DNA from: an uncultured archaeon
GTDB lineage: Archaea; Thermoproteota; Bathyarchaeia; TCS64
Length of the DNA stretch: 64,000 bases
Assembly: GCA_938048735.1 (NCBI GenBank)
Contig: CALIUM010000015.1
Location: 52,599-116,598 of the forward strand
Direction: 5' to 3'
Below the pieces are notes generated by a model that saw only the letters and a program-made list of their open reading frames with translations, searched no databases and had not been told where the DNA came from. Positions within the stretch are counted from its first letter, which is position 1. The number at the start of each line of letters is the position of its first letter. Positions 21,629-24,605 of the stretch are shown piece by piece. A program made the translations under genes and the position numbers.

Positions 21629-22624
21629 TTAATTATCGGAGGGGGTGGAGCGGAGCCATCTGCTCGCCTTAACGGCGGGGATGAAGCCCCTCCTCCTGGA
21701 GGCCATTGAGGAGAAGAATAGGATGCATCCAGGTATTAGGAGGGATATAATGAGGTTGTACACGGGATGGAATGGGTAGGCCTCCCCGAATTGGAGCCAT
21801 CCCATGGTGAGGAGGCCCCCCCTATTATACCACCAGAGGTTTGGGGTTATCCCGGTCAACCTCATGGATATGTCGCATGCCGTTGGCAAAACGATGAGTA
21901 TCATGTGGTAGAGCCAGAGCATTGTGCAGAGGTCGTCGTCCCTGAAGGATAGGGGAGCTATGAGGCACCAGAGGTACCAGAGGGCTATGGATAAAGCCTC
22001 GAGGCCTAGGCTGAGGGGGCCGGTGATGTAGGGGGATACGAGGATCAGAGGGGAGGCAAAGAATGGGATGAGGATGATCCATGGGAATCTCCCATCCACC
22101 TTTATGCCCTCCTTCGGGGGGGAGATCCTGTCAATTAGGATGGCCACAGTTATTATTGAGGCTATGAGGAGGATCCCCCTTATGGTCCTGATGAATAGGG
22201 GGAGGTAGCCCATTATGGGGATCCTCCAAACCACTCTCCCTATCACCTTCTCCTCCGGGACTGGCTGGCTGTCCCTAAAGGGGTTGTTGTCTCCCTTCGT
22301 TATGAACCACCACCGGCCTCCCTGGAGGTACTTCTCGACCGCCCTGTGGACTATGTACTCCTCCGAGGCCCCGCTCCTAGAGAAGACTATTATCTCCCCA
22401 GTGGGCCTTGGCGCAGCCGTCACACCGCCGTAGTCGTCTATTCTGGCTACGAATATGAAGTCTCCTACGCCTAGGGTTGGAACCATGCTCTGGGATACCA
22501 CAACCATCACAGGATGCTCGGTTCCCAGGGTAACCCTAAGTAGCTGGACTCCCCCGAAGATTATGATGGCGAAGATTATGATGGAGGCTAGCTGTCCCGC
22601 CAGATCTCTCCTACGGGGCCTCAA
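21629..22624 (-). CDS. Archaeal signal peptidase I (Sec11 type) with a C-terminal multi-spanning membrane domain
   Basis: Removes signal peptides at the cell membrane. One N-terminal membrane helix (about 9-30), catalytic Ser in VSQSMVPTL, His replacing bacterial Lys in EYIVHRAV, Asp in TKGDNNPF. After the catalytic domain there are about five more hydrophobic segments (about 148-165, 178-200, 205-222, 235-250, 290-310), roughly doubling the usual length. TTG start 7 nt after the TFE-beta stop, so it is the last gene of the tbp operon. Confidence 0.88.
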   Translation of the reverse strand: MRPRRRDLAGQLASIIIFAIIIFGGVQLLRVTLGTEHPVMVVVSQSMVPTLGVGDFIFVARIDDYGGVTAAPRPTGEIIVFSRSGASEEYIVHRAVEKYLQGGRWWFITKGDNNPFRDSQPVPEEKVIGRVVWRIPIMGYLPLFIRTIRGILLIASIITVAILIDRISPPKEGIKVDGRFPWIILIPFFASPLILVSPYITGPLSLGLEALSIALWYLWCLIAPLSFRDDDLCTMLWLYHMILIVLPTACDISMRLTGITPNLWWYNRGGLLTMGWLQFGEAYPFHPVYNLIISLLIPGCILFFSSMASRRRGFIPAVKASRWLRSTPSDN

Positions 22625-22631
22625 CCACCCC

Positions 22632-22997
22632 TCAGCCTCTTCTCCCCTCTCCAGAGTTCTCCATTATCCACCTTGTCAGATACTCGCAGCTTATGGGGGA
22701 CCTCTCCCCTCCCTCGAAGCATCTATCTATATCGTCGCACCTCAGGCATGGGCTATCCTTTATGGAAGTTAGGCTTACATGCCTCCTCTTCGAGTTGAGC
22801 TTGTAGGTCCACCTCCCCTCATAGAGTACTCGGTCTCTCTCGATCTCCCCCTTCTCCTCGAGCCTCTGGGCGAGTCTAGAGCCCTCCCTGCTGCTTAGGC
22901 CGAGCCTCTTCCACATCTCACATTGCAGGATGCCATTCTCAGACTCCATTATCAGCCTAAGAGCCTTCTCCTCGAGACCATTGTTTCTCTGGGGCAA
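22632..22997 (-). CDS. RPC34/RPC39-like transcription factor TFE-beta subunit with Fe-S cysteine motif
   Basis: 121 residues. An N-terminal winged helix (LRLIMESENGILQCEMWKRLGLSSREGSRLAQRL) is followed by the wing and a C-terminal cysteine motif PCLRC..C..EGG..SP.SC with spacing C-x2-C-x5-C-x10-C, then EYLTRWIM. Human RPC39 ends with a closely similar motif, and archaeal TFE-beta carries a 4Fe-4S cluster there. TFE-beta binds the RNA polymerase clamp with TFE-alpha and helps open promoters. Located between tbp and signal peptidase, with gaps of 21 and 7 nt. Confidence 0.85.
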   Translation of the reverse strand: MPQRNNGLEEKALRLIMESENGILQCEMWKRLGLSSREGSRLAQRLEEKGEIERDRVLYEGRWTYKLNSKRRHVSLTSIKDSPCLRCDDIDRCFEGGERSPISCEYLTRWIMENSGEGRRG

Positions 22998-23018: not shown

Positions 23019-23585
23019 TCAATCGTAGTATATCAGGCCTTCTTTCTGGAGGAGGTCGTAGAGCTTCTCGACCGCTTCTCGGACCATCGCCTCCTTTTTA
23101 GCGCCTGTGCAGACCAGCTTCCCGCTGGCGAATAGGAGCATCACGACCTTTGGGTCGGTCATCCTGTAGATTAGGCCTGGGAACTGCTCTGGCTCGTACA
23201 TTATATTCTCCATAACGTTCGCCGCCATCTCGAGGTCTATCCTTCCTCCTAGGTTGGCTGAGGCGACAATGTTCTGGATGACTATCTCGGGTCTCCCCAA
23301 TATCACGATCCCGCTGTTCTTCAGCTCCTTCACAACCCTCCTTACGGCTCCTTTGGCCTGCTTCTCGGACTTCGCCCCTGTGCAGACCATCTTCCCGGAT
23401 GCGAATATGAGGGTCGCGGTTTTGGGTCTCTTCAGCCTGAAGACCAGCCCTGGGAACTGTTTGGGCCTATACTCGACGTTCCTGAAGGCCTTCATGATGG
23501 AGAGGAGGTCTATCTTCTGATCCAAGGTCGCGGAGGCCACCACATTCTCGATGCTTATCTGGAGCTTTCTAGTGGACATTCCCAT
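23019..23585 (-). CDS. tbp: TATA-box-binding protein
   Basis: General transcription factor that binds TATA boxes and recruits TFB and RNA polymerase. 188 residues with the two direct repeats typical of TBP: IENVVASATLDQKIDL...YRPKQFPGLVFRLKRPKTATLIFASGKMVCTGAKS and IQNIVASANLGGRIDLE...YEPEQFPGLIYRMTDPKVVMLLFASGKLVCTGAKK. ATG preceded by AGGAGGG. It is second in a four-gene string, 9 nt after a small unknown gene. Confidence 0.97.
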   Translation of the reverse strand: MGMSTRKLQISIENVVASATLDQKIDLLSIMKAFRNVEYRPKQFPGLVFRLKRPKTATLIFASGKMVCTGAKSEKQAKGAVRRVVKELKNSGIVILGRPEIVIQNIVASANLGGRIDLEMAANVMENIMYEPEQFPGLIYRMTDPKVVMLLFASGKLVCTGAKKEAMVREAVEKLYDLLQKEGLIYYD

Positions 23586-23594
23586 GAATCCCTC

Positions 23595-23921
23595 CTAGTC
23601 GGATAAGACCTTAGAGAGCTGTTCAGGAGGGATGATGTCCTGGTTGCTCACCTCCACTATGGGGATGGAGCTTATGTTTGGATCGGTTCTCAGCCTCTCG
23701 CTGTAGGAGATATCTCCGGAGAAGTTGTTGTAGATGATGAAGCTTCCGGGCAGTGGCTTCTCCTCTCTGACAAAGAATAGGAAGACCTCGCTCATCGTCC
23801 CCCCGATGATGAAGTAGATGTGTGCCCCTTCTGATTGAAAGTGCTGGATAACATTCATCGAAGGCGAAGAGGCTACCAGCATGACGAGGTCCCTTATAGA
23901 CCTCAATCGAATATACTTCAT
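23595..23921 (-). CDS. Small protein of unknown function, first gene of the tbp operon
   Basis: Start set at ATG 23921 because GAGGGAG lies directly before it and because the ORF-track start falls upstream of the TATA-like boxes. 108 residues: mixed alpha/beta, with hydrophobic strands (LVMLVASS, HIYFIIGGTMSEVFLFFV) and a C-terminal VEVSNQDIIPPEQLSKVL. I do not recognise the family; the alternating strands and a beta-GG turn suggest a compact alpha/beta fold. Its fixed position ahead of tbp and TFE-beta suggests a transcription-linked or co-regulated role. Confidence 0.6.
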   Translation of the reverse strand: MKYIRLRSIRDLVMLVASSPSMNVIQHFQSEGAHIYFIIGGTMSEVFLFFVREEKPLPGSFIIYNNFSGDISYSERLRTDPNISSIPIVEVSNQDIIPPEQLSKVLSD

Positions 23922-23951
23922 CTCCCTCGATAAGGAATATAGGCGAATCAT

Positions 23952-23969
23952 GTTTAAATAGTTTAAATA
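23952..23969 (-). promoter_or_regulatory. Tandem TATA-like boxes of the tbp operon
   Basis: The 9-bp unit GTTTAAATA is repeated exactly head to tail (23952-23960 and 23961-23969). On the minus strand this reads TATTTAAACTATTTAAAC. The nearer copy lies about 25 nt before the expected transcription start, leaving a short leader with GAGGGAG before ATG 23921. Two equal TATA boxes at the gene set for TBP could allow autoregulation. Confidence 0.5.
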
Positions 23970-24092
23970 GTCCGGCCCCCTCAAGGGGATATCGCCTCCG
24001 TGGAGGGGGTTTAAAGGGTTGTTGAGGGGCGGCGCACAGATCCTTTTTATCCATCCTCTAAGGGATAGAGATAGAATGGGGGAGATGTCCGA

Positions 24093-24605
24093 GTGTTCGC
24101 AGGTAGTGTTTCTCTTGCCCCATATGTGGCGACCCCAGTGAATGTTGTGAGGGAGATGCTCAGGATAGCGGATGTGAAGCCGGGGGAGGCCGTCTACGAC
24201 CTAGGGTGCGGGGATGGAAGGATAGCCATCACGGCGGCCCTTGAGTTCGGCGCCAGGGGGGTTGGCGTGGACATCAATCAGAACCTTGTCAGGGAGGCCC
24301 GTAAGAGAGTGGAGGAACTCCACCTAGGCGATAGGGTGAAGATCATCCACGGCAACCTCTTGGAGATAGACCTCAGCCAGGCTGATGTTGTGACCATGTA
24401 TCTGACCACCTCCGCGAATGAGAAGGTGAGGCCAAAGCTGGAGCAGGAGCTTAAACCTGGGGCCAGGGTCGTCACCCACGACTTCATGATCCCGAAATGG
24501 GAGGTTACCAACAGCATGAAGGTTCAGGGAGAGTATAGAACCCATTTAATATACCTCTACATCTGGCAGCCGAAGGAGGGAGTTAGACACCCTGCCAAGC
24601 GGTGA
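24093..24605 (+). CDS. aKMT-like protein-lysine methyltransferase
   Basis: 170 residues, class I SAM methyltransferase without extra domains. Motif I VYDLGCGDGRIAITAA, acidic loop GVGVDINQNLV, motif IV TMYLTTSANEKVRPKLEQELKPG and the start APYVATPVNVVREML closely follow the Sulfolobus aKMT protein, a broad-specificity enzyme that methylates lysines of many archaeal proteins including chromatin proteins. GTG start with GGGGGAG 9 nt upstream. Divergent from the tbp operon; a TATA-like CTTTTTATCC lies near 24042-24052. Confidence 0.85.
   Translation: MFAGSVSLAPYVATPVNVVREMLRIADVKPGEAVYDLGCGDGRIAITAALEFGARGVGVDINQNLVREARKRVEELHLGDRVKIIHGNLLEIDLSQADVVTMYLTTSANEKVRPKLEQELKPGARVVTHDFMIPKWEVTNSMKVQGEYRTHLIYLYIWQPKEGVRHPAKR

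Follow-up and report, generated by a model that had tools for sequence, protein, structure and literature searches.

Duplicated TATA boxes in a probably autoregulatory core promoter before the TATA-binding protein operon of a Bathyarchaeia archaeon

TATA-binding protein (TBP) is a factor required by every promoter, and the open-access papers searched for this work do not address how archaea set its level. One precedent for self-control at an archaeal core promoter comes from autoregulated repressors acting there, which Bell and Jackson reportedly described in the J Biol Chem in 2000. A second comes from eukaryotes, where TBP auto-regulation has been modeled kinetically as simple positive feedback, with no preferential binding of the protein to its own promoter assumed, and where the promoter of the TBP gene is thought to be TATA-less (PMC2928763). 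The ordinary archaeal core promoter provides the third point of reference, and in the transcription start map of Thermococcus onnurineus its elements follow one another with the TATA element centred near -27, the BRE at -33, and the PPE at -10 (PMC5316973).

The locus described here lies in a 64,000-nucleotide stretch of a genome assigned to Ca. Bathyarchaeota from its named relatives, and this whole stretch is referred to as the window. In plus-strand numbering, the sequence GTTTAAATA occurs head to tail at 23952-23960 and 23961-23969, upstream of an operon that contains a small gene, tbp, a TFEbeta-like gene, and a signal peptidase gene. Because the operon is encoded on the minus strand, the two copies read functionally as TATTTAAAC-TATTTAAAC, and the pair as a whole reads TATTTAAACTATTTAAAC on that strand. 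An exact tandem TATA-like box with its copies offset by 9 bp, placed before this very operon, had been proposed from the sequence in the original prediction; both the repeat and the gene order were confirmed. The features of the locus are as follows.

23595..23921, minus strand: gene for a 108-aa protein, opening the operon, with its start revised to ATG 23921
23019..23585, minus strand: tbp, TATA-binding protein (PF00352, E=3.6e-65)
22632..22997, minus strand: TFEbeta-like gene with a C-terminal Cys cluster (Rpc34 at 22.7 bits, below the cut-off)
21629..22624, minus strand: archaeal signal peptidase I-like gene (TIGR02228, above the cut-off)
23952..23960, minus strand: inner TATA box TATTTAAAC, core TTTAAA at 23953-23958, -37 to -32 from ATG 23921
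23961..23969, minus strand: outer TATA box TATTTAAAC, core TTTAAA at 23962-23967, -46 to -41 from ATG 23921
24043..24052, plus strand: TATA box CTTTTTATCC, separate from the pair, belonging to the divergent gene for a methyltransferase (24093-24605)

The genes of the operon are separated by gaps of only 7–21 bp, and the tbp at 23019-23585 is the only TBP gene found in its genome (one match in G000). The TFEbeta-like gene also matched human RPC6 (E=1.2e-4) over its Cys-rich end. The 108-aa protein had no match in Pfam, NCBIfam, or the PDB, and a fold search and a PDB profile search returned nothing significant; its structure is predicted to be a compact mixed beta fold (pLDDT 88). The gene for this protein directly precedes tbp throughout the order (L001-L029), and its distant homologues in the rest of the class do not adjoin tbp.

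An in-frame ATG at 23951 adjoins the repeat, and the longest reading of the first gene would have the coding region reach or include the repeat. The start at 23951 was rejected, as the relatives begin at ATG 23921: their alignments begin at residues 2-10, and their common start, M[KR][FY][VI][QHR]L, falls at residue 11. The true start is therefore ATG 23921, the repeat is intergenic, and the inner box becomes a normally positioned TATA box. Assignment of the twin boxes to the divergent methyltransferase gene was likewise rejected, since that gene has its own CTTTTTAT box, which is present before many methyltransferase orthologues as well. The interval separating the twin boxes from the divergent promoter also contains an imperfect inverted repeat, CCCCCTCAAGGG / CCGTGGAGGGGG, at 23976-24009 of the window, with a 10-nt gap and GATATC near its centre; it is not preserved in the wider family.

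Within the window, the 9-mer GTTTAAATA occurs four times, against 0.09 expected, and its copies are adjacent only at 23952-23969. The 18-mer has a single match there, even with up to three mismatches allowed (0 expected), and the spaced motif TTTWWA-N3-TTTWWA has this pair as its sole occurrence (0 expected). At zero mismatches, TATTTAAANTATTTAAA occurs once in the 1.6-Mb genome.

Conservation was assessed in the upstream regions of 29 orthologous operons, the present one included, aligned on the start codon and scored for full TATA hexamers of the form TTT[AT][AT]A. Two such hexamers exactly 9 bp apart were found in 17 of these 29 promoters, which share ancestry, with counts that are not independent and Fisher p-values that overstate the evidence. 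Dinucleotide shuffles of the same regions yielded a mean of 0.12 and a maximum of 2 over 500 rounds, and among control promoters taken from stretches of the home genome and G005, the full pair was found in 1 of 531, the single hit lying before the tbp operon of G005. At the outer position, 9 bp upstream, the hexamer was a full TATA hexamer in 18/29 regions and fitted at no fewer than five of six positions in 24/29, leaving a degenerate outer box in five relatives. Other spacings showed no clear enrichment in these 29 regions, except those involving a third element, considered below. At the genus level, the full pair extends to six of the eight genera of the family (g1, g2, g4, g5, g6, and g8), and two sister families possess degenerate pairs. 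Absence from close relatives, named in the original prediction as grounds for refuting its reading, therefore does not apply, as the pair is also conserved within the genus.

A stronger point than any of these counts is that conservation of the outer hexamer almost equals that of the inner one, while the 3-bp spacer and the flank upstream of the outer copy vary; sequence constraint on the pair is thereby shown. Chance duplication in an A/T-rich promoter, for which the A/T richness of promoters and nothing beyond it can be adduced, is refuted at this level by the 17 observed pairs against 0.12 in shuffles and by hexamers kept around a variable spacer, and we regard it as having a negligible probability.

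The layout of the promoter can be compared with the archaeal order outlined above (PMC5316973). Two further elements enter here.

23931..23942, minus strand: A/T-rich proximal element, TTTATA or TATATA in many relatives
23922..23928, minus strand: predicted 7-nt leader GAGGGAG, with the transcription start predicted near 23928 from the TATA-to-start distance

The inner TTTAAA lies about 30 bp before the predicted transcription start. The AAA at -6 to -4 relative to this inner box makes up its A-rich BRE and belongs to the outer box, which is located exactly 9 bp upstream and overlies this position. There is no A-rich BRE-like element upstream of the outer box, and a full productive-promoter layout is consequently found at the inner box only. 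Columns +21 to +27 from the inner box are mostly A/T in the relatives (weakly so in the home genus), and conserved purines occur at about +29 to +32. Since the inner box, the +21 to +27 element, and the purines fit the published order, initiation is predicted at about 23928, which would give a leader of 7 nt, and the inner box, with its core at -37 in most of the 29 relatives, is the predicted productive one. Eleven of the 29 regions, against 0.6 expected from shuffles, contain a further full hexamer of the TATA type at 18-24 bp from one of the others; this third TATA-like element is treated here as the PPE and is weak in the home genus.

The outer copy could conceivably be nothing other than the BRE of the inner box, reading TTTAAA by coincidence. 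Its AAA does occupy the BRE position, where the promoters of these genomes favour A. The TTT of the outer box, however, is not accounted for in this way: at -9 to -7, T makes up 76-100% of residues in the 29 relatives but 22-28% in 92 aligned control promoters, and control promoters bearing a TATA box have no second box at -9. The BRE alone is therefore insufficient as an explanation of the outer box, and coincidence of this kind appears quite improbable.

Several comparisons bear on whether the pair belongs to tbp in particular. A pair at 9-10 bp was found before none of 30 TFB genes, a soft control because many of these genes seem to be inside operons, and before one of 29 methyltransferase orthologues. 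Divergent TBP paralogues also lacked it (0/12 readable promoters; 15 were fetched, and L261, L262, and L271 were left out because the anchor motif was absent), several of them having a single TATTTAAAC. Linkage of the pair to the small gene rather than to tbp was rejected, as homologues of the 108-aa gene that are unlinked to tbp, whose promoters were located with tblastn, do not have the pair. From the TFB genes, the TBP paralogues, and the unlinked homologues, it follows that the feature accompanies the core tbp operon. An extra TBP-type site that is both conserved and tbp-specific, as expected of a TBP autoregulatory promoter, was accordingly found (17/29 against 1/531). These promoter comparisons were made by counting hexamers; motif finding by expectation maximization (EM) on all upstream regions of the home genome converged on the Shine-Dalgarno motif.

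The paralogues present a picture of their own. Several genomes of the same family (G012, G007, G013, and G024-G026; L257-L270) encode four to nine TBP-like genes, against one here, and TFB domains are also numerous. Several of the paralogue promoters have GTGACGTATTTAAACC in common, with a single box.

Overlapping boxes might also serve strength or redundancy, generating a strong, robust promoter or two starts about 9 nt apart with no feedback involved. The same conservation data apply to such an explanation, and every promoter needs TBP. Nevertheless, the other promoters in the comparison, which necessarily include strong ones, do not have the pair (1/531), and the proximal element and purines match the inner box only, making this account somewhat unlikely in our estimation.

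Beyond the order, 39 tbp genes of other Bathyarchaeia were found to have their own promoter directly upstream, with a different sequence. In an exploratory comparison, the hexamer definitions having been chosen after part of the data had been seen, pairs at 9 or 10 bp were found in 7-8 of these 39 tbp promoters and, among 498 control promoters drawn from the same stretches, in 1-7, the ranges reflecting which hexamer definition was applied. Examples include CTTATAAAG, present twice in L244, and TTTATAAGGCTTTATA in L226, L230, and L251. With the hexamer definition of the home order, the excess in these other Bathyarchaeia was confined to 10 bp (3/39 against 1/498). In the wider Thermoproteota, under the same exploratory terms, 20 of 37 tbp promoters had two TATA-like hexamers 8-16 bp apart; shuffles averaged 2.1 (maximum 7), and 12 of 199 controls had such a pair. 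Spacing and position are variable in this wider set, and the large family f28 is mostly without the feature (1/7). Some tbp promoters have two or three such boxes, with spacings mostly of 12-16 bp, namely those of L315, L317, L318, L326, and L328, all of one wider-Thermoproteota family, and of L320-L322; the tbp promoter of L326, for example, reads TTTAAATAGGGGTTTATAAA.

The nature of these variants is relevant to another possibility, that the pair is the operator of a dedicated regulator recognising repeated TTTAAA over the core promoter. A fixed 9-bp spacing around a variable spacer would also be expected from a dimeric or tandem DNA-binding protein. The hexamers, however, shift among TATA-type variants (TTTAAA, TTTATA, and CTTATA), and other Bathyarchaeia have different TATA sequences at 9-10 bp, both as expected of TBP. 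A dedicated operator is thus an unlikely explanation.

TBP covers about 8 bp of DNA, and TFB contacts the BRE just upstream of it. Given the 9-bp offset, whatever is bound at the outer box covers the inner box on its BRE side, and the two complexes should not be able to bind at once. On this basis, the reading that we favour, at a probability of roughly 45%, is that the pair constitutes the TBP-binding TATA boxes of one composite, TBP-sensing core promoter, capturing TBP when it is low and being occluded when it is high. The inner box would direct productive initiation about 30 bp downstream, and the outer box would overlie the TFB-recognition position of the inner one, so that a full TBP-TFB complex could not form on the inner box while TBP, alone or with TFB, was bound to the outer one, and vice versa. 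At low TBP levels, the paired sites could help the operon to recruit the protein, and at high levels a filled outer box could limit initiation, resulting in homeostatic feedback. We infer binding of TBP at both boxes, the incompatibility of the two complexes, and the direction in which the feedback acts; dosage sensing is the simplest use of such a site before TBP's own gene. In Sulfolobus acidocaldarius, DNA bending by TBP requires both TFB and an intact BRE (PMC4041446). Naked TBP may for this reason fail to stay on the outer box, which lacks an A-rich BRE; a TBP-TFB complex there would serve equally well in the model.

Autoregulation and start-site choice had both been put forward in the original prediction. 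The first is the most natural reading of a pair that is specific for tbp. The second is less likely, because the proximal element, the purines, and the leader length fit the inner box only. It is conceivable, though doubtful, that in Thermoproteota as a rule TBP dosage is set by a second TATA box within the tbp core promoter, with the exact 9-10-bp tandem being the form adopted by Bathyarchaeia. If so, a general transcription factor would measure itself without a dedicated regulator across the phylum.

No report of tandem or twin TATA boxes, or of TBP feedback, at an archaeal tbp gene was found in a search confined to open-access literature, a scope that makes this weak evidence of novelty. 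A conserved, tbp-specific pair of TBP-type sites is a concrete cis element that is amenable to a minimal test with three components (TBP, TFB, and RNA polymerase), and natural spacing variants are available for comparison. Should the reading prove true, it would represent self-regulation of a general factor without a repressor.

Taken together, the feature is probably an autoregulatory core promoter with duplicated TATA boxes, and it resembles each of the known systems in part. It shares with the standard archaeal core promoter (PMC5316973) the inner box, the A's at the BRE position, and the predicted start, and an A/T-rich proximal element is clear in the relatives but weak in the home genus; it differs in having a second full TATA box at a fixed 9 bp upstream, which the other promoters here lack. 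Its likeness to eukaryotic TBP auto-regulation (PMC2928763) is that TBP is required for transcription of its own gene, whereas the eukaryotic model has no twin TATA boxes of the kind present here. Finally, as with the autoregulated archaeal repressors, the gene's own product is proposed to compete at the core promoter; there, however, the binder is a bacterial-type regulator, and here it would be the general factor itself.
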